64,000 nt of DNA, taken from assembly GCF_028290435.1 (NCBI RefSeq), contig NZ_JAQGJV010000078.1, forward strand, positions 1-64,000. The letters are read 5' to 3'. This stretch comes from Devosia sp. GTDB lineage: Bacteria > Pseudomonadota > Alphaproteobacteria > Rhizobiales > Devosiaceae. Shown in pieces: positions 36,191 to 44,682 of the stretch. A program made the position numbers and the translations under genes. Each line of letters starts with the position of its first letter. Position 1 is the stretch's first letter. The notes under the pieces were generated by a model. The model saw only the letters and a program-made list of their open reading frames with translations, did no database searches and was not told where the DNA came from.

Positions 36191-36996
36191 CCTTTATCCG
36201 CCGCTCGAATTTCGTTCCAGTAGCCATCGAGCCGGTCGAGGCCAGCCGCCTCGATCGCCACGCCGTCTCCGCGAGCTCGCGCTTCGACGTGGTGAAACCG
36301 CCGAGTGAACTTCTGGTTGGCATCGCGCAGGGCGGCTTCGGCATCGACGCCGGCGTGGCGCGCCAGATTGGCGACGGCGAAGAGCAGGTCGCCGATTTCC
36401 TCGTGCGTGGCGGCAGCGTCGCCTGAGGCTGCGGCTTCAGAGACTTCGGCCAGTTCCTCGGTGACCTTGGCCGCGACGGCGGCGAGATCGGGCCAGTCGA
36501 AGCCGACGCGGGCGGCGCGCTTGGTCAGCTTTTCAGCGCGGGCAAGTGCGGGCAGCGTGGCAGCGACGTCGTCGAGAACCGAGGGAACGGTATCGCCTTT
36601 GCGTGCGGCCTTGGCGGCGCGTTCCTCGACCTTGATGGCTTCCCAACGGCCCTGCGCGGCTTGTGCATCATTGGCATCGAGATCGCCGAAGACGTGGGGA
36701 TGGCGACGGATCAGCTTTTCGGTGATGCCATAGATGACGTCGCCGATATCGAAGTGGGCGGCCTCGCTGGCCATCTGCGCGTGGTAGATCGGCTGCAGCA
36801 GCAGATCACCGAGTTCCTCGCGCAGGTCGGCAAAATCCTGGCGCTCGATAGCATCGGCGACCTCGTAGGCTTCCTCTATGGTGTAGTGGCGGATGGTGGA
36901 AAAGTCCTGCACCAGATCCCAGGGGCAGCCGCCGACGGGATTGCGCAAGGCGGCCATGATTTCGATCAGACGGGAAATATCGCGGGAGGGCTGCAT
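36187..36996 (-). CDS. mazG: Nucleoside triphosphate pyrophosphohydrolase MazG
   Basis: House-cleaning enzyme hydrolysing (d)NTPs to monophosphates and possibly lowering ppGpp in starvation. The 269-residue protein has the two MazG repeats: the N-terminal one with EEAYEVADAIERQDFADLRE followed by ELGDLLLQ, and the C-terminal one with EELAEVSEAA and EEIGDLLFAVANLARH, each carrying the EExxE...ExxD metal site. Its length matches full-size MazG. It is convergent with hflX. Confidence 0.95.
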   Translation of the reverse strand: MQPSRDISRLIEIMAALRNPVGGCPWDLVQDFSTIRHYTIEEAYEVADAIERQDFADLREELGDLLLQPIYHAQMASEAAHFDIGDVIYGITEKLIRRHPHVFGDLDANDAQAAQGRWEAIKVEERAAKAARKGDTVPSVLDDVAATLPALARAEKLTKRAARVGFDWPDLAAVAAKVTEELAEVSEAAASGDAAATHEEIGDLLFAVANLARHAGVDAEAALRDANQKFTRRFHHVEARARGDGVAIEAAGLDRLDGYWNEIRAADKG

Positions 36997-37077
36997 GGCG
37001 GGCTCGATGATGGAATCGGTGAGCCGAGCTTAGCAAGGGTGCCGGAGCATGTCGTCAGCGCGGTACCTCAACCGGCC

Positions 37078-37761
37078 CTAAGCGGTCGCCTGATTGATCA
37101 AGCCGGTCCGGGCCGAGGCGATGTGCCGGCGCATCAAAAGTTCTGATAGTTCTGCGTCGCGATCGGCTATGGCCTCCACGATACGCTCGTGTTCGGCGAG
37201 AGCGCGTTGGGCGCGACCTGGGACGATCCGATGCCGCATGCGGTACAGCCGGAACAGCGTGTAGTATTCTCCACACAGCAGGTCGAACAGATGCTGGTTG
37301 CGCCCGATGCGGGCGACCATGAAGTGAAAATCGGAATTTGCCGTCGCCTGCCAATAGACCATGGCGTCCGGCTTGGAGAGCGCTTGGCGATGGCCCGCGA
37401 GCATCGTCCTGAGATCTTCGATTTCCGCATCAGTGGCGTTGTCGGCGGCGTGGCGGGCGGCCAGCCCCTCCAACACCTCACGGATCGTGAAAAGCTCCAG
37501 CGCGTCCTCGGGAGTCGGCACCACGACGCGCACGCCCTGGCGCGGGGCGCTGGTGACGAGCTTGCGCTCTTCCAGCCGCCGGATCGCCTCCCGGACGGGG
37601 CCGCGGCTCACGCCATATTGCGCTGCGAGCCGCGGTTCGCTGAGCTTTGAGCCCGGGGCGAACGTCCCCATGACGATGGCTTCGCTGAGCTGGTCGAAAA
37701 GTTGGTCGGTGAGCAGCCGGTCGTCAGCCGGGTCGTGCTTTTCGTCGGCTAATGTGCTCAC
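37078..37761 (-). CDS. GntR-family (FCD/FadR-type) regulator of the tct operon
   Basis: 227-residue transcription factor: winged helix-turn-helix at about 17-85 (recognition helix in YGVSRGPVREAIRRLEERKLV) and an FCD ligand-binding domain at about 95-220 with the histidine/aspartate pattern of metal-binding FCD proteins. It is the last gene of the minus-strand unit tctC-tctB-tctA-mmgE/prpD-lyase, 12 bases after the lyase. Regulators of this type usually control the adjacent catabolic genes and respond to a pathway carboxylate. Its likely operators are the palindromes at 43260 and 43322; that link is inference. Confidence 0.9.
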   Translation of the reverse strand: MSTLADEKHDPADDRLLTDQLFDQLSEAIVMGTFAPGSKLSEPRLAAQYGVSRGPVREAIRRLEERKLVTSAPRQGVRVVVPTPEDALELFTIREVLEGLAARHAADNATDAEIEDLRTMLAGHRQALSKPDAMVYWQATANSDFHFMVARIGRNQHLFDLLCGEYYTLFRLYRMRHRIVPGRAQRALAEHERIVEAIADRDAELSELLMRRHIASARTGLINQATA

Positions 37762-37773
37762 CGTTGCAATCCT

Positions 37774-38652
37774 CTAGTCCCTGGTTGCGTAACGTTTTTC
37801 CAGCTCGTCGAACAGCGGCTTGTTCACGAGCCGCTGGCGCTCCTTGAAGCTGGCAACCGGACCGGTTTCGTCCAGGCTGCCATTGCTTTTGAGCTGGCCG
37901 AGCGCCGCCTGCATGCCATAGATCGCGCCCTGTAGCGCCACATTGGCGTACAGCACCAGTGAAAAGCCCATCCGGTCCAGCTCTTCGAGCCCCAGGATCG
38001 GGGTGCGCCCGCCGACGACCAGATTGACCAGTTGGGGCGTATTCTTGAGTTGGGCGGGGATGCTGCGGATTTCCTCAATGCTCTCGGGAGCTTCGACGAA
38101 GGTGATGTCGGCTCCGTCCTCGATAAAGGCCTGCGCGCGCTCGATTGCCGCAGCAAAGCCCTGCGTCGCGCGGGCGTCAGTGCGGGCGATGATCAGCAGG
38201 TTGGGGTCCTGCCGCGCATCCACCGCAGCCTTGATACGGCTGCGTGCCTCGCCCAGATCGACCACGTCCTTACCCGCAAAATGGCCGCATCGCTTGGGAT
38301 TGACCTGGTCCTCCAACTGGATGGCGCTGGCGCCGGCCCGCTCGAGCGTGCGGATGGTGTGGCGCACGTTGAGGGCGTTGCCGAAGCCGGTATCGGCATC
38401 GACAACGATGGGCAGGTCCGTGGCGTCGCGGATGGTGGACGTATGCTGGGCGATTTCGGGCAGGCTGACAAAGCCTAAGTCCGGCATGCCCAGATAAGTG
38501 TTGGTGAGACCTGCGCCCGACAGATAGATCGCCTCGAAACCCAGATCGGCAATGATGCGGGCAGCCAGCGCGTTGGCCGCTCCCGGCATCAGCACGGCGC
38601 CGCCCTTGTCCAGGCGCGCGCGGAAGGCTTGGTTGATTTCGTGGTTGAGCAT
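37774..38652 (-). CDS. Isocitrate lyase/PEP mutase family lyase (methylisocitrate lyase-like)
   Basis: 292-residue (beta/alpha)8-barrel lyase. The metal-binding VDADTGFGN (84-92) and the catalytic-loop cysteine in PKRCGHFAGK (C122) place it with C-C bond lyases such as 2-methylisocitrate lyase (PrpB) and 2,3-dimethylmalate lyase, not with PEP mutase or phosphonopyruvate hydrolase, which lack this cysteine. It would cleave a 2-hydroxy di- or tricarboxylate to pyruvate (or glyoxylate) plus another acid. It lies three bases from the MmgE/PrpD gene. No methylcitrate synthase is near, so the substrate is probably imported and the prpB name is withheld. Confidence 0.88.
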   Translation of the reverse strand: MLNHEINQAFRARLDKGGAVLMPGAANALAARIIADLGFEAIYLSGAGLTNTYLGMPDLGFVSLPEIAQHTSTIRDATDLPIVVDADTGFGNALNVRHTIRTLERAGASAIQLEDQVNPKRCGHFAGKDVVDLGEARSRIKAAVDARQDPNLLIIARTDARATQGFAAAIERAQAFIEDGADITFVEAPESIEEIRSIPAQLKNTPQLVNLVVGGRTPILGLEELDRMGFSLVLYANVALQGAIYGMQAALGQLKSNGSLDETGPVASFKERQRLVNKPLFDELEKRYATRD

Positions 38653-38655
38653 GGT

Positions 38656-40179
38656 CTAGTCCAGTCCGCGGTCGAAAATGCCCTGGCCGGTGGGCTTGGA
38701 AGGAATGACCGAACCGCCCGGCAAGGCGGGCACCAGGCCATCGAGCGCTTTGGCGGGCAGGGCGGTGAAGCCCTTGGCGGCGGCCAGGAACGCCTGGCGT
38801 TCGGAGGCGCCCAGCGTGTCGCGGGTCAGCGTTTCGAATTTTCCGGCATAGTCGGGCCAGGTCCAGGGATGGGCGCCATTGGGATGGGCGTCGGCAACGG
38901 CGCGCTCGCCCACGATGGTGGTGCCGTCCAGCATCGTCACGACGATCTTGCCGCCGAAGGCCCGCTTGTCCGGGTCGACCTCAAGATAGCGTCGCGTCCA
39001 TTCGGGATCTTCGACAGTGGTGATCTTGTGCCACAGCGCCACGGTCGATGGCGTACGGGCCCGTTCGCGGGCATAGCTGTCGACATGGTGCCATCTGCGG
39101 TCTTCGAGCGCGACGGCAAGAATATACATGATCGAATGATCCAGCGTTTCGCGGCTGGCTTCGGGATCGCTCTTCTGCGGGTCGTTGGCGCCCGTGCCGA
39201 TCACGTTATGGGTGTGATGGCTGGTTTCGAGCAGCACCGATTTAACCTGGCTGAGATCGCCGATCTGACCTGACAGGTCGATGGCAAGGTCGATCAGGGC
39301 CTGCGCCTGGTACTCGGCCGAGTGCGCCTTGGTATAAGTTTCCAGAATCTGGCGTGGGCTCTCGCCGGGCGCCGGCAGGCTGACGCTATAGCGCTCGTCC
39401 CTCCCGCCCAGCATCCAGGCCAGCACGGATTCCTCGCCCTCATAGATTGGCGATGGCGATGCTTCCCCGCGCATGGCGCGGTCGATGCACTCGATGGCCA
39501 GCTTGCCCGAAAAGCCGGGCACATAGGCCTTCCACGAACTGATCTCGCCCTTGCGCGACTGTCGGGTTGAAAACGCCAGGTGCACTGCCTGGTTGACCGC
39601 CTGGTAGATCACCTCGGTGGAAAGACCCAACATGGCGCCGATGCCGGCGGTGGTGGCCGGTGCCAGGTGCGCGACGTGGTCCTTCTTGTACTTATGCAGC
39701 GAGATCGCCTTCACCAGGGCGACATGAACCTCGTAAGCCACAGCGGCGCCCCTCGCCAGCGCCGCGCCGTCGAGGCCCATCTGCTGGGCGACGGCGATCA
39801 GCGGCGACAGGGAGTCGCCGGGATGGGAATAGTCGGCAGCCAGGAACGTGTCATGGAAGTCGAGTTCGCGCACGGCGGTAGCATTGGCCCAGGCGGCCCA
39901 TTCGGCATCCACCCGGCTCGATGCATCCAATCCGTAGAGGGTAGCGCCGCCCTTGCGTGGATGCGCCAGCGCCATGGAGCGGGCCGCCGCGACCGGAGCC
40001 CGGTTGATGGCGGCCAGGGCCACGCTGGCATTGTCCACGATCCTGCAGGCGATCATCTCGCGCACGTCGGCGTCGATTGGCCCGCAATGGGCGGCAAATT
40101 CGGCGATGTGCCAGGCGAGCTGCTGCTGGCGGGGCAGATTGGCGGCGGAGGCGTGAACCTTGACGTCGTAGGTCTTCAT
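38656..40179 (-). CDS. MmgE/PrpD-family protein
   Basis: 507-residue member of the family that includes 2-methylcitrate dehydratase (PrpD), cis-aconitate decarboxylase and iminodisuccinate epimerase. The two-domain layout is normal: a helical N-terminal domain (AWHIAEFAAHCGPIDADV, WANATAVRELDFHDTFLAADYSHPGD) and a C-terminal alpha/beta domain. The HDTF...HPGD region, where catalytic residues of the family cluster, is intact. I chose the ATG at 40179 because the AAGGA lies directly against the other ATG at 40191. The reaction is uncertain: dehydration, epimerisation and decarboxylation are all possible. Confidence 0.87.
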   Translation of the reverse strand: MKTYDVKVHASAANLPRQQQLAWHIAEFAAHCGPIDADVREMIACRIVDNASVALAAINRAPVAAARSMALAHPRKGGATLYGLDASSRVDAEWAAWANATAVRELDFHDTFLAADYSHPGDSLSPLIAVAQQMGLDGAALARGAAVAYEVHVALVKAISLHKYKKDHVAHLAPATTAGIGAMLGLSTEVIYQAVNQAVHLAFSTRQSRKGEISSWKAYVPGFSGKLAIECIDRAMRGEASPSPIYEGEESVLAWMLGGRDERYSVSLPAPGESPRQILETYTKAHSAEYQAQALIDLAIDLSGQIGDLSQVKSVLLETSHHTHNVIGTGANDPQKSDPEASRETLDHSIMYILAVALEDRRWHHVDSYARERARTPSTVALWHKITTVEDPEWTRRYLEVDPDKRAFGGKIVVTMLDGTTIVGERAVADAHPNGAHPWTWPDYAGKFETLTRDTLGASERQAFLAAAKGFTALPAKALDGLVPALPGGSVIPSKPTGQGIFDRGLD

Positions 40180-40226
40180 AGTCGATGGCATTCCTTAGTC
40201 GAAGTGAAACAGGGCCCTAGGGCCGT

Positions 40227-41714
40227 TCAGGCATTGGCGCGCAGGCGCCGAAGCAGTGGAGGCACGGCCAAAAACAGCAGGGCGATGACCATCAGCGTGC
40301 CCGAGAGCGGGGTCGAGACGAGGACGATGGGGTTGCCCTGCCCAGCCGCCAGGGCCGTCCGCAACTGGGTTTCGGCCATGGGGCCGAGGATCAGGCCGAT
40401 CAGTACCGGCGCGATGGGGAAATCGTAGACCCGCATCACATAACCCATCAGGCCGATGACCAGCATGATGGCGAGGTCGGTCCAGGAGCCGGCGAGGCCC
40501 CAGACGCCGATCATGGCAAAGACCAGAATGCCGGCATAAAGCTGCGGACGCGGGATGCGCAGCAATTGTACCCAGATGCCCACGAGCGGCAGGTTGAGCA
40601 CGAGCAGCATGACATTGCCGATATAGAGCGAGGCGATGAGGCCCCAGATCAGCGCCGGGTTGGACGTGAAGAGGAAAGGGCCGGGCTGCAGGCCGTAATT
40701 CTGGAAGGCGGCGAGCAGCACGGCGGCGGTCGCCGAGGTCGGCAGGCCCAGGGTCAGCAGCGGCACGAGAATGCCGGCGGCGGCGGCATTGTTGGCGGCT
40801 TCGGGACCGGCGACGCCCTCAATGGCGCCATGGCCGAACTCGTCCTTGTGGCGCGAGAGTTTACGCTCGAGCGTATAGGACAGCATGGTGGGAATTTCCG
40901 AGCCGCCGCCGGGCAGGGCGCCCATTGGAAAGCCGATAAGGGTCCCGCGTAGCCAGGGTTTCCAGGATCGGGCGAAGTCCTCTCGCGTAAACCACGCCTG
41001 GCCCTTGACGGACGCCATGGCGGCCGGGGCCGAGCGGAAGCGGCTGGCGACATAGAGCATCTCGCCGACGGCGAACAGCGACACCAGCACGACCGTAAGT
41101 TCAACACCGCGCAAAAGCTGCATGACGCCGAAGGTGAGCCGGGGCTGGCCGCTCATGGAATCGATGCCGATGACGCCGATGGCTATGCCGATAAACAGCG
41201 AAATGAATCCGCGTGTGCGCGAGTTGCCCATCACCACGGCGACCGAGCAGAAGGCCAGCGTGGTTAAGGCGAAATAGTCGGCGGGCTTGAAGTAGAACGC
41301 CAGCTCGGCAATGGCCGGCGCCGCAAAGGTGAGGGCCAGCGTGGCGATGGTGCCTGCCACGAAGGAGCCAAGCGCAGCGGTGGTCAGGGCAGCGGCGCCA
41401 CGGCCGGCGCGCGCCATCTTGTTTCCCTCAAGCGCGGTCATCATCGAGCCGGCTTCACCGGGTGTATTCAGCAGGATCGAGGTGGTCGACCCGCCATACA
41501 TGGCGCCATAGAGAATGCCGGCGAACATGATGAAGGCCGAGGTGGGTTCGAGTGTGGTGGTGATGGGCAGCAGGAGGGCGATGGTCAGCGCCGGCCCGAT
41601 GCCTGGGAGGATGCCGATTATGGTGCCCAGGAGCGAGCCCACCAGGGCCCACATCAAATTGACCGGTTGTACGGCAACGGCGAAGCCGTCCAGGAGCAGC
41701 CCGAAGGTTTGCAT
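40227..41714 (-). CDS. tctA: Tripartite tricarboxylate transporter, large permease TctA
   Basis: 495-residue inner-membrane protein with about 10-12 TM helices. It has the TctA hallmarks [21 protein letters not shown] near the N-terminus and [14 protein letters not shown] in the middle, as well as the repeated glycine/proline loops of the family. With TctB and the binding protein TctC it forms a secondary, sodium- or proton-coupled importer for a carboxylate. It lies four bases after tctB and 47 bases before the MmgE/PrpD gene. Confidence 0.93.
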
Positions 41715-41717
41715 GCG

Positions 41718-42248
41718 TCAAAACCCCAAGGGTGGAAAAAAGCCGCCCAGTTGCAAACCGAGACGGGCAAACAGGAACCAGGCGAGGGCGGCGAGTACGG
41801 CGCCGCAGATTAGGTCCAGCCACCAGCGGCGCGAGCCGAAGGCATTGGCGACCAGCATGAACGCGATCGTGGCGGTAAAGGGCATTCCGAGCGGCTTCAT
41901 GGTGGCGATCGGGACGGCAACGGCGACAAGCGCCGTAAAGAAAGCCCGGCGATCCATGCCGGCATCGGCTTGGGCGTCTTCCGCCTCTTGCGGCTCGAAG
42001 CTTTCGCCGCGCCATATCTGCAGAATGAGGATGGCGCCCAGTACCAGCAGGGCAGCACCCGATATGGTGACGAAAAGGCCCGGACCAACGGCTGCATAGC
42101 GAGCGCCCTGCGGCAGGCCGGAGGCTCCATAAAGCCAGACCGCTCCGATGGCCATGACCCCGATTCCGATCCAGTAGGGGCGGGCGGGTGCGGAGGCGGC
42201 CGCGGGGCCGCCTCCATTCTGGCTGTTATCCTGCCCGTCAGTTGACAA
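41718..42248 (-). CDS. tctB: Tripartite tricarboxylate transporter, small permease TctB
   Basis: Four-TM small subunit (about 176 residues). Hydrophobic segments lie at about 20-37, 49-69, 95-125 (two helices) and 135-165. The frame is open to 42413, but that part is antisense noise over tctC. I take the TTG at 42248, eight bases after AAGGA, which overlaps the tctC end by 11 bases; the ATG at 42257 is a close alternative. TctB proteins vary greatly in sequence, and the call rests on size, topology and position between tctC and tctA. Confidence 0.82.
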   Translation of the reverse strand: MSTDGQDNSQNGGGPAAASAPARPYWIGIGVMAIGAVWLYGASGLPQGARYAAVGPGLFVTISGAALLVLGAILILQIWRGESFEPQEAEDAQADAGMDRRAFFTALVAVAVPIATMKPLGMPFTATIAFMLVANAFGSRRWWLDLICGAVLAALAWFLFARLGLQLGGFFPPLGF

Positions 42249-43194
42249 GGCCGGCATCCTTGAGGACCTTGCCCTGGGTCGCGGTCTCTTGCGCGATGAA
42301 CGCGCCGAAGTCTTCACCGGCGAGGAAGTAATCGTCCCAACCTTGGGTTTCGAGTACGGCCTTCCAGGCATCGCTCTTGGAAAGCTGCGTGAAGCGATCG
42401 ACCCATTGGGCATAGTTGTCGTCCGGCGCGCCAGGCGCCGCCAGGATGCCGCGCCAGTTGGCGAGCTCGATGGGATAGCCGGCTTCGGTGAAGGTCGGCA
42501 CGTCGGGCAGGTTGGTACGGCGTTCGGCGGCGGTGACTCCCAGCAGCTTGATGCGGCCCTGCTCGGCGAACTGGGCGAATTCGGACGTGCCCGAAACGCC
42601 GGCCGTCAGTGTACCGTTGACGATGGCAGTTACCGTCTCGGCGCCAGAGGTCTGCGGGATATAGTTGAGGTCGGCTACCGGAATGCCGCCTTCCTGCGCC
42701 AGCAGGGCCACGGCGATATGGTCGACACCGCCGGCCGAACCGCCGCCGATCGGATGAGCGCCTGGATCGGCCTTGAGGTCGGCGACAAGGTCGGCCAGCG
42801 TGTTGTAGGGCGAGTCAGCCGCTACCGCGACAACCAGGTATTCGGCGGTCAGCCGTGCCACTGGACGGAAATCCGCCAGGTTGATGGGCGAACTGTTGAG
42901 CTGGATGGCGCCCACAGTGATCGCGCCGAACACGGCCAGCGCATCGGGCTGGCCGGTCGAGGTGCCCAGGAACTCGGCAAGTCCAACAGTGCCGCCGGCG
43001 CCGCCGGTATTGGTGAAATTGACGCCGTCTGTATAGATGCCGGCATCCTTGAGAGCCTGGAAGGCTTGGCGGCCCGTACCGTCCCAGCCGCCGCCGGGGG
43101 CGGCGGGCAGCATGACATTGACCTGGGCGCTGGCTGCGCCCGTGCCAAGCGCCGCCGTCATGGCAAGCGCAATCAGTGTCTTCGAAAGCTTCAT
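42238..43194 (-). CDS. tctC: Tripartite tricarboxylate transporter, periplasmic binding protein TctC
   Basis: 318-residue solute-binding protein of the Bug/TctC type. It has a signal peptide (MKLSKTLIALAMTAALGTGAASA, cut before QVNVMLP), then the family blocks PAAPGGGWDGTGR and FTNTGGAGGTVGLAEF, the loops that grip the carboxylate. A strong GGGAGGA lies six bases before the ATG. It is the first gene of the operon and sits next to the promoter and operator region. The ligand cannot be read from sequence; relatives bind citrate, tricarballylate, aspartate or phthalates. Confidence 0.93.
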   Translation of the reverse strand: MKLSKTLIALAMTAALGTGAASAQVNVMLPAAPGGGWDGTGRQAFQALKDAGIYTDGVNFTNTGGAGGTVGLAEFLGTSTGQPDALAVFGAITVGAIQLNSSPINLADFRPVARLTAEYLVVAVAADSPYNTLADLVADLKADPGAHPIGGGSAGGVDHIAVALLAQEGGIPVADLNYIPQTSGAETVTAIVNGTLTAGVSGTSEFAQFAEQGRIKLLGVTAAERRTNLPDVPTFTEAGYPIELANWRGILAAPGAPDDNYAQWVDRFTQLSKSDAWKAVLETQGWDDYFLAGEDFGAFIAQETATQGKVLKDAGLVN

Positions 43195-43229
43195 TATTGA
43201 TCCTCCCGAGCGTGCGGTGTTTATTGCGC

Positions 43230-43258
43230 TATCTGGCGCCTTTGTCCGTCACGCTCAA
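43230..43258 (-). promoter_or_regulatory. Candidate tctC promoter
   Basis: On the minus strand TTGAGC (43258-43253), 17 bases, CAGATA (43235-43230). The -35 box directly abuts the palindrome at 43260. Confidence 0.35.
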
Positions 43259-43259
43259 A

Positions 43260-43271
43260 TCTGTCGACAGA
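43260..43271. promoter_or_regulatory. Operator-like palindrome 1
   Basis: TCTGTCGACAGA is a perfect 12-base palindrome, extended on both sides by AA/TT pairs after one mismatch. It shares the pattern TCTG-N4-CAGA with site 2, whose centre is 63 bases away (six helical turns). This is probably the binding site of the GntR regulator. Confidence 0.55.
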
Positions 43272-43321
43272 ATTGACGTTTCAGAGGTCACCATAACGCC
43301 AAAAGGACGTCAACCCCAAAG

Positions 43322-43335
43322 TTCTGCTGACAGAA
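43322..43335. promoter_or_regulatory. Operator-like palindrome 2
   Basis: TTCTGCTGACAGAA: arms TTCTG/CAGAA around CTGA, matching site 1 in arms and spacing. Two sites in phase suggest cooperative binding or looping. Confidence 0.5.
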
Positions 43336-43446
43336 TGGTGCGTTGGTGATGGCTGCGCCTGAGCGAAATCCCGATGCGATCAGCAAAGGGGGCGGGGGTG
43401 CCAAATTTGAATGGCGAATTGCACCTGCCAAGCCCGTACTGGGCAG

Positions 43447-43479
43447 CGGTCGCGCAATTGCCATGCGCTTGCGCGACCG
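43447..43479. repeat. Eleven-base-pair hairpin
   Basis: CGGTCGCGCAA and TTGCGCGACCG pair perfectly around an 11-base loop. No T-run follows on either strand, so it is not a standard terminator; it may be an RNA element or a protein site. Confidence 0.6.
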
Positions 43480-43586
43480 TGGCTCGCTCCGAAAATGGAC
43501 GGTGGCAGTTGAGTGACCAACGGCCTAGTTGCGATCCGCTGTGCAGCACTTTTCGGTTCGCAATCGTGAGGCCTGAGGCGAGGCAG

Positions 43587-43601
43587 ATCGATTGAATCGA
43601 T
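43587..43601. repeat. Palindrome
   Basis: ATCGATT-G-AATCGAT, perfect 7-base arms around one base. Confidence 0.5.
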
Positions 43602-43634
43602 TGGATGCAGTGCTGCCGGCTGGAGCGTCTGATT

Positions 43635-43667
43635 GTGAAGGGGTGGTGGATCGTGAAGGGGTGGTGG
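43635..43667. repeat. Tandem direct repeat, period 18
   Basis: GTGAAGGGGTGGTGG occurs at 43635-43649 and again at 43653-43667, separated by three bases. Confidence 0.7.
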
Positions 43668-43702
43668 GGACCGAGTCAATCGAACCGTCGATCCGTGATT
43701 CG

Positions 43703-43773
43703 CATAATATATATTATGGAACTTTTGTATTGATCTAAGGCATTGATTCAATGGAGGTTTGTATAAAAATACA
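43703..43773. repeat. Cluster of three AT-rich palindromes
   Basis: CATAATATATATTATG (43703-43718, perfect 16 bases), CATTGATTCAATG (43741-43753) and TGTATAAAAATACA (43760-43773). They lie within 71 bases in an otherwise GC-rich region, upstream of the whole tct unit and just downstream of the minus-strand MBL gene. Confidence 0.6.
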
Positions 43774-43845
43774 GGTTTTCGCGTTCAGCGGCTAGCGGCG
43801 GTGGCGCCATCATAGCTCAGCGCGGCGGCACGAGGATAAGTCGGC

Positions 43846-44682
43846 TCAGAGGTTGATGATGGTTCCTGCCACGACGTCGATGCGCATGCCGTCGAAGGCT
43901 GGTTCGACATTGGCGGGCAAAGTCGATTGCAGCGTCCGGTAGTCCATATCGATGTGCATGTTCGTGAGCACGGCTTTGCCTGGCGCGAAGCGCTCGATTA
44001 GATCCAGGGTTTCCGGCAAGCTCAGATGGCTTGGATGTGGCGCGTGGCGCAAGGCGTCGACGATCCAGAGGCTCAATCCAGATACGGCGGCGTCGGAGTT
44101 GGCGGGAATGGCCGACAGGTCGCAGGAATAGGCGAAATTGCCGACGCGGAAGCCAAGAGACTCAATGTTGCCGTGCACTTGGCTGAAAGCGTCGATGCGG
44201 ATGGTGCCGCCGGGTCCATTGATCGACAGCACGGTGCCTGCCTCGATTTCATGGGCATTGAGGATGGGCGGATAGTCGCTGCCGGGTGGCGCGGTGAAGC
44301 AATAGCCAAAGGCCTCGCGGATGCGGGCGCCAGCCTCGCGGGTGAAATAGACGTCGACGCGCTGGCGGTTATTCAGCGCCAGCACACGCAAATCATCGAT
44401 GCCGTGCGTATGGTCGGCGTGTTCGTGAGTATAGAGCACCGCGTCGACGCGATTGACCTCGGCATCCAGCAATTGCTCGCGCAGGTCGCAACCGGTGTCG
44501 ATGAGGACGCGGGTTGGCTCGGCGACGCCGTCGGTCCAGCCTTCGATCAGCAGCGCGCAGCGGCGGCGGCGGTTGCGCGGCTCGGCGGGATCACAATCGC
44601 CCCAGATATTGCCGATGCGCGGCACACCGCCGGACGAGCCACAGCCAAGCACCGTGGCAATGATCTTTTGCGCGTCGGCCAT
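43846..44682 (-). CDS. MBL-fold metallo-hydrolase (PhnP-like)
   Basis: 278-residue metallo-beta-lactamase-fold protein with the metal motif THEHADHTHGIDD (H86, H88, D90, H91), an N-terminal VLGCGSSGGVPRIG strand-loop and further histidines toward the C-terminus (QVHGNIESLG, NMHIDMDY). Sequence type is that of PhnP/cyclic-phosphodiesterase-like enzymes. In alphaproteobacteria this gene regularly follows tmk-holB-metG-tatD, as here; its own substrate is not established. It starts three bases after the tatD stop. Confidence 0.88.
   Translation of the reverse strand: MADAQKIIATVLGCGSSGGVPRIGNIWGDCDPAEPRNRRRRCALLIEGWTDGVAEPTRVLIDTGCDLREQLLDAEVNRVDAVLYTHEHADHTHGIDDLRVLALNNRQRVDVYFTREAGARIREAFGYCFTAPPGSDYPPILNAHEIEAGTVLSINGPGGTIRIDAFSQVHGNIESLGFRVGNFAYSCDLSAIPANSDAAVSGLSLWIVDALRHAPHPSHLSLPETLDLIERFAPGKAVLTNMHIDMDYRTLQSTLPANVEPAFDGMRIDVVAGTIINL

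Follow-up and report, generated by a model that had tools for sequence, protein, structure and literature searches.

A six-gene operon in Devosia

The window analyzed here is a 64,000-nucleotide stretch of the genome of a Devosia sp. (positions 1 to 64,000 of contig NZ_JAQGJV010000078.1, assembly GCF_028290435.1), and the system in question is an operon that combines a tripartite tricarboxylate transporter (TTT) with an MmgE/PrpD protein, a lyase of the PEP mutase/isocitrate lyase (ICL) family, and a GntR regulator. The host is a soil bacterium. The six genes, all on the minus strand, run from 43194 to 37078 in the order TctC-TctB-TctA, MmgE/PrpD, lyase, and GntR:

42238..43194, minus strand: tctC, periplasmic substrate-binding protein of the TTT (Pfam TctC, 96.7 bits, cut-off 27)
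41718..42257, minus strand: tctB, small membrane subunit (Pfam TctB, 62 bits, cut-off 29.1)
40227..41714, minus strand: tctA, large membrane subunit (Pfam TctA, 505.9 bits)
38656..40191, minus strand: MmgE/PrpD protein, proposed 2-methylcitrate dehydratase (Pfam MmgE_PrpD_N and MmgE_PrpD_C)
37774..38652, minus strand: KRCGH lyase, proposed 2-methylisocitrate lyase (Pfam PEP_mutase and ICL)
37078..37761, minus strand: GntR regulator with an FCD domain (Pfam GntR, 72.6 bits; FCD, 85.2 bits)

The intergenic spacings are -20, 3, 35, 3, and 12 bases from tctC to GntR, the 20-base overlap between tctC and tctB resulting from the tctB start codon that we chose, and GntR is separated from mazG by 81 bases. 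TctA, TctB, and TctC each score above their Pfam cut-offs and are encoded by adjacent genes, and the regulator carries the helix-turn-helix and FCD domain of an FCD-type GntR protein. An earlier note on this DNA had described a six-gene minus-strand operon of these families, opening with a complete tripartite transporter and closing with an FCD-type GntR; Pfam, the coordinates, and the gene order bear this out. Its extent of 37078..43845 holds for the genes only up to 43194, with the remaining 651 bases (43195-43845) forming an intergenic region upstream of tctC that contains predicted control sites. An Rfam scan of 36900-44000 gave no match, and a terminator scan found 7 terminator-like sites versus 4.7 in shuffled sequence.

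Conservation of the operon

We compared the operon across 15 distinct genomes in which MmgE is the window's own or at least 79% identical to it, leaving out G064 and G069 as duplicates of G029 and G003. The locus comparison drew on the best 80 loci, and further members are possible. TctCBA and GntR each neighbor MmgE in 14 of the 15 genomes, and the lyase in 7. The 15 loci occupy 11 different chromosomal sites, with flanking genes common only to a single five-locus group (L024, L059, L060, L061, and L068); L027 and L063, which have one flanking gene in common at 52%, were not counted as the same site. This gene grouping exceeds chance. A lack of conserved linkage was one of the outcomes that the earlier note had named as fatal to its proposal; in close relatives TctCBA, MmgE, and GntR are conserved together, and it is the lyase, taken there as a fixed member of the set, that turns out to be optional. 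A distant version of the set occurs in a metagenome-assembled genome of the Trueperaceae (Deinococcota; L085 2138-7554), where TctC, a 151-amino-acid gene, TctA, MmgE (63%), and a lyase nearer to PrpB (45%) are found.

The MmgE/PrpD protein and the methylcitrate cycle

In a tree of 82 MmgE/PrpD proteins (10 of 92 candidates were dropped), the 21 operon-type proteins form a single clade with support of 100/100, beside the Trueperaceae protein from L085. This clade is separate from the 60 prpDCB-type proteins and sister to PrpD. Across the two groups the alignment shows 158 near-invariant positions and 8 fixed differences; the blocks DFHDTF..HPGD, RQSRKGEISSWKA, KxHSAEYQ, and SHHTH are kept in both. 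The earlier note had left isomerization, dehydration, and decarboxylation open for this protein; of the three, dehydration is the most likely step.

The operon protein is the sole PrpD relative with E <1e-100 in all 15 genomes. The prp locus of G014 and G022 has the order metE-prpC-prpB, where its counterpart in G031 is metE-prpD-prpC-prpB. Since the operon protein is the only strong PrpD candidate in 15 of 15 genomes while 9 of them have PrpC, the simplest reading is that it acts as PrpD in the genomes with PrpC. Among 37 genomes of the genus, tct-type PrpD occurs in six, prpDCB-type PrpD in six, and both together in none; mutual exclusion of the two types is not significant in this sample (Fisher p 0.56).

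PrpC was not found in the window genome assembly (99 contigs), in agreement with the earlier note, which had remarked on its absence; the best match is 31% identical. PrpC occurs at 79-88% identity in 9 of the 15 genomes (the G062 copy is split across two contigs) and was not found in the other six, five of which carry the in-operon lyase. The occurrence of PrpC in these nine genomes, an operator common to prpC in five genomes (see below), and three citrate-synthase-like matches in the window genome would all suit an alternative in which the operon contributes no more than the PrpD and PrpB steps of propionate breakdown inside the cell through the methylcitrate cycle: methylcitrate would come from an ordinary citrate synthase, and TctCBA would import citrate or take back leaked intermediate. 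We regard this as unlikely: none of the three matches passes the TIGR01800 cut-off, the six genomes without a detected PrpC are mostly those with the lyase in the operon, and the enduring linkage of transporter and enzymes would be left unexplained. A divergent citrate-synthase-like gene pair is present in G000 (contig C18, 72050-74335) and is common in the other Devosia genomes searched.

No AcnD match over the curated cut-off was found in any of the 15 genomes, which is a weak test since none of 14 control genomes passes either. An aconitase-family protein was located at G000 C1.

The lyase and its relation to PrpB

The KRCGH motif from which the earlier note had named the lyase is present in the window protein as one form of a Cys-containing K(R/K)CGH motif; in an alignment of 13 lyase proteins, 11 have KRCGH and 2 KKCGH. 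Identity to Devosia PrpB is 35-42%, varying by protein and alignment. Canonical PrpB (at least 77% identical) occurs in 9 of the 15 genomes, and the two enzymes are distributed in a complementary fashion: one genome has both (G014), six have the lyase only, eight have PrpB only, and none has neither (Fisher p 0.0014, uncorrected for kinship). Set against PrpC, the lyase gives a Fisher p of 0.04. For three genomes (the window genome, G003, and G029) the search for PrpB used the lyase as query, a query that recovers PrpB in sister genomes; for two of them PrpB itself also served as query, run against the duplicates G069 (of G003) and G064 (of G029). The lyase apparently stands in place of canonical PrpB where PrpB is missing. 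In D. enhydra, PrpC (79%) lies about 1.7 kb from the operon, and neither PrpB nor a second strong PrpD was found.

Two further clusters touch on this family. In G029 (D. psychrophila; duplicate G064), a frame at L143 11869-12783 starts out 78% identical to PrpB for 136 residues and then diverges; it adjoins TctA- and TctC-like frames and is perhaps a PrpB remnant. In G003, a second cluster (L142 7364-10949) contains TctA (43%), a lyase (43%), and TctC (26%).

Relatives of the lyase were surveyed on plasmids and across the class. Among 33 plasmid records with lyase relatives, 12 were opened, 9 of them annotated and 3 unannotated. Five of the nine annotated loci have the gene order prpC-acnD-prpF-lyase (L178, L180, L181, L195, and L196), with a thioesterase gene inserted in the Azospira operon and a TctC-type binding protein gene within that of Variovorax paradoxus (L196 1068-2048). 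Another two have TctCBA-AcnA divergent from GntR-lyase, and the last two show neither arrangement. The class-wide scan found a lyase match at E up to 1e-95 in 14 of 385 genomes. Among the 13 matches outside the window, two have acnD-prpF-lyase (L185 and L187, one with prpC in view), three have TctC or TctA near the lyase (L182, L193, and L183, which covers the same DNA as L073), a PrpF-like gene adjoins the lyase in two (L188 and L194), and six show none of these. The lyases in L188 (7450-11054) and L194 (5777-9361), 54-59% identical, follow the PrpF-like gene, which in L188 is itself preceded by an FAD-binding dehydrogenase; these clusters possibly represent another tricarboxylate route. At L182 (7190-14736), the lyase (78% identical) has as neighbors a sensor kinase, a response regulator, and a divergent TctCBA set, and MmgE/PrpD is lacking.

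Two other activities were weighed for this enzyme. An isocitrate lyase role was rejected, with a score of about 60 bits against the AceA model TIGR01346 (cut-off 275.9). True isocitrate lyase passes that cut-off in 5 of the 15 genomes; the operon lyase is absent from four of these and present in the fifth (G068), so that the distribution of isocitrate lyase cannot account for the lyase pattern. A dimethylmalate- or citramalate-type pathway ending in a C4-C6 malate lyase is suggested by 2,3-dimethylmalate lyase and petal death protein, both among the PDB matches, and by a 95% identical protein to which one source gives the name 2,3-dimethylmalate lyase. We consider such a pathway very improbable, as the operon dehydratase is PrpD-type, the kin of the lyase sit in prpC-acnD-prpF operons, a citrate symporter replaces TctCBA in Rhodoplanes, and the operon holds no further pathway gene.

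The transporter

The PDB relatives of the TctC protein are TctC-type binding proteins. At the Rhodoplanes locus L064, the position of TctCBA is taken by a citMHS-family citrate:proton symporter (531.6 bits, cut-off 259.7), located behind the same operator pair as tctC; in this genome PrpB is present and PrpC was not found. Of five plasmid TctA relatives that were opened, one adjoins a citrate:proton symporter, one adjoins tcuA, and three give no clear hint. The citMHS replacement and these TctA neighbors point to a tricarboxylate in general, and to no particular one, as the putative transporter substrate. The substrates of TTT systems are still little explored, and methylcitrate has no occurrence in the available portion of the article that says so (PMC5812351). 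Among the titles and abstract openings listed in searches of open-licence papers, none describes a methylcitrate importer.

A shared operator pair

The intergenic region upstream of tctC contains the following predicted control sites:

43322..43335: predicted operator O1, a palindrome, TTCTGTCAGCAGAA on the minus strand
43259..43272: predicted operator O2, a palindrome 63 bases from O1, TTCTGTCGACAGAT on the minus strand
43308..43313, minus strand: candidate -35 element TTGACG, with TTGAC identical in 16 aligned rows from 14 distinct operons

The two palindromes, of the form TTCTGTCGACAGAA, enclose the invariant TTGAC. No -10 element was identified, a sigma-70 consensus scan returning 0 sites (mean of 1.4 in shuffles). 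Spacing between the operators is 62-64 across operons, with D. enhydra (74) as the exception. We scanned 2,315,848 bases, drawn from loci that overlap in part, for pairs of sites 50-80 bases apart, both above 13 bits and one above 17, which gave 20 rows: 13 at tctC (11 distinct operons), 1 at citMHS, and 6 at prpC, and none elsewhere in the bases scanned. The tctC sites supplied the matrix, so finding the tctC pairs again is expected; the sites at prpC and citMHS played no part in it. The prpC genes with the pair belong to five genomes (G022, G061, G062, G063, and G070).

The pair and the regulator are not uniformly present. One strong site only was found in 2 of 13 GntR-bearing tct operons (L026/L062 and L065), and in G007 neither GntR (E up to 1e-40) nor the operator was found, a joint absence that speaks for the GntR-controlled system proposed below. 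In the six genomes of the genus with prpDCB, a GntR passing that threshold is likewise absent, and their loci contain no operator pair. In the window genome, the operator pattern with one mismatch occurs at 7 sites versus 4 for a reversed control pattern, and from this comparison the six further sites look like background.

Comparison with known systems

The closest relatives of the operon each share part of its content. The prpDCB operon of Devosia (L029) and Paracoccus denitrificans (annotated as Pden_1348-1346; PMC10370305) is alike in encoding a PrpD-type dehydratase (about 60% identical) and, after it, a PEP-mutase-type lyase, but the window operon has no PrpC, a lyase of another subfamily, and in addition TctCBA and its own GntR. 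The plasmid prpC-acnD-prpF-lyase operons contain the same lyase subfamily (about 60-64% identical) together with PrpC, AcnD, and PrpF, where the window operon has a PrpD-type protein instead. With TctCBA systems for citrate or tricarballylate uptake it has the complete three-part transporter in common; unlike these, it lacks a citrate-specific regulator and is linked to PrpD-type and methylisocitrate-lyase-type enzymes. The plasmid cluster of Roseibium/Labrenzia (L176 1425-8873 and L200 425-7873), in which TctCBA-AcnA is divergent from GntR-lyase, resembles it in having the transporter, a GntR (39% identical), and a lyase 70% identical to that of the window, but contains an aconitase in place of MmgE/PrpD, and its TctA is only about 30% identical.

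A proposed pathway for 2-methylcitrate

Taken together, the operon probably encodes the GntR-controlled uptake and cleavage of 2-methylcitrate. We prefer this substrate because of the clade sister to PrpD, the apparent replacement of PrpD and PrpB, the operator shared with prpC, and the replacement of the transporter by a citrate symporter. External 2-methylcitrate would be bound by TctC and imported by TctAB. The MmgE/PrpD protein, judging from where it falls in the tree, the motifs it retains, and its apparent substitution for PrpD, would then dehydrate it to 2-methyl-cis-aconitate, which a housekeeping aconitase could rehydrate to 2-methylisocitrate. The subfamily, context, and complementarity to PrpB of the KRCGH lyase suggest that it would split 2-methylisocitrate to pyruvate and succinate. 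GntR is predicted to act at the two palindromes around the tctC promoter, probably as a repressor until the substrate or a product appears. In genomes that have prpC and prpB as well, this module would provide the PrpD of the methylcitrate cycle; with no PrpC found in the window genome, import is the sensible mode there. The scheme of uptake, conversion, and cleavage put forward in the earlier note finds good but partial support in the genomic evidence, with an optional lyase and with import and enzyme activities still putative; from its list of candidate substrates methylcitrate is retained, and tricarballylate, itaconate-like, and dimethylmalate-like compounds lose ground.

Several observations weigh against this assignment. 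The MmgE/PrpD protein scores 717.8 bits against the PrpD model NF042438 (cut-off 950), and the lyase 283.0 bits against TIGR02317 prpB (cut-off 354.4), shortfalls that also affect the PrpD of a Devosia metE-prpD-prpC-prpB locus (906.2 vs 950) and three tested lyases from prpC-acnD-prpF operons (274-284 bits). G014 holds the lyase alongside PrpB, and the presence of the lyase on the tree is explained by about 3 changes, so that the lyase/PrpB pattern reflects few events and not 15. The operator pair is missing at prpC in G007, G014, G065, and G073, and the five operator-bearing prpC genes all come from one group of close relatives sharing the operon site, which implies one origin. Among distant clade members, TctCBA was not found beside MmgE in L069, L070, and L071 (70-71%), and in L073 only TctC is near MmgE, with GntR and lyase divergent. 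The stem of the operon-type clade is also long (0.36), so the substrate could have changed. This stem, the 8 fixed differences from PrpD, and the TctA relative adjoining tcuA, a tricarballylate dehydrogenase gene, would fit the same chemistry acting on another substrate, such as a longer 2-alkylcitrate or other tricarboxylate entering as the free acid. That alternative seems to us quite doubtful, given that the same protein is apparently the sole PrpD where PrpC and PrpB exist, that the PrpD motif blocks are unchanged, and that the operator is held in common with prpC.

What would be new here is the combination, in which a methylcitrate cycle lacks the synthase and comes with an importer and a regulator of its own; the component families are already known. 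A more tentative proposal, to which we give somewhat less than even credence, is that the operon is dedicated to scavenging, in that some Devosia and relatives may no longer make methylcitrate and may instead use what neighbors release, with GntR sensing it. The compound is familiar chiefly as an intracellular intermediate with toxic effects, and dedicated uptake, if true, would make 2-methylcitrate an exchanged metabolite: propionate-using neighbors would supply it, different species would jointly run the methylcitrate cycle, and the transporter would be the first assigned methylcitrate importer. The neighboring genes and shared operator predict a substrate for a TTT that is open to immediate test. 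The regulon outlined by the operator also suggests functions for a lyase subfamily named in the sources only as PEP mutase/isocitrate lyase family and for an uncharacterized GntR regulator.

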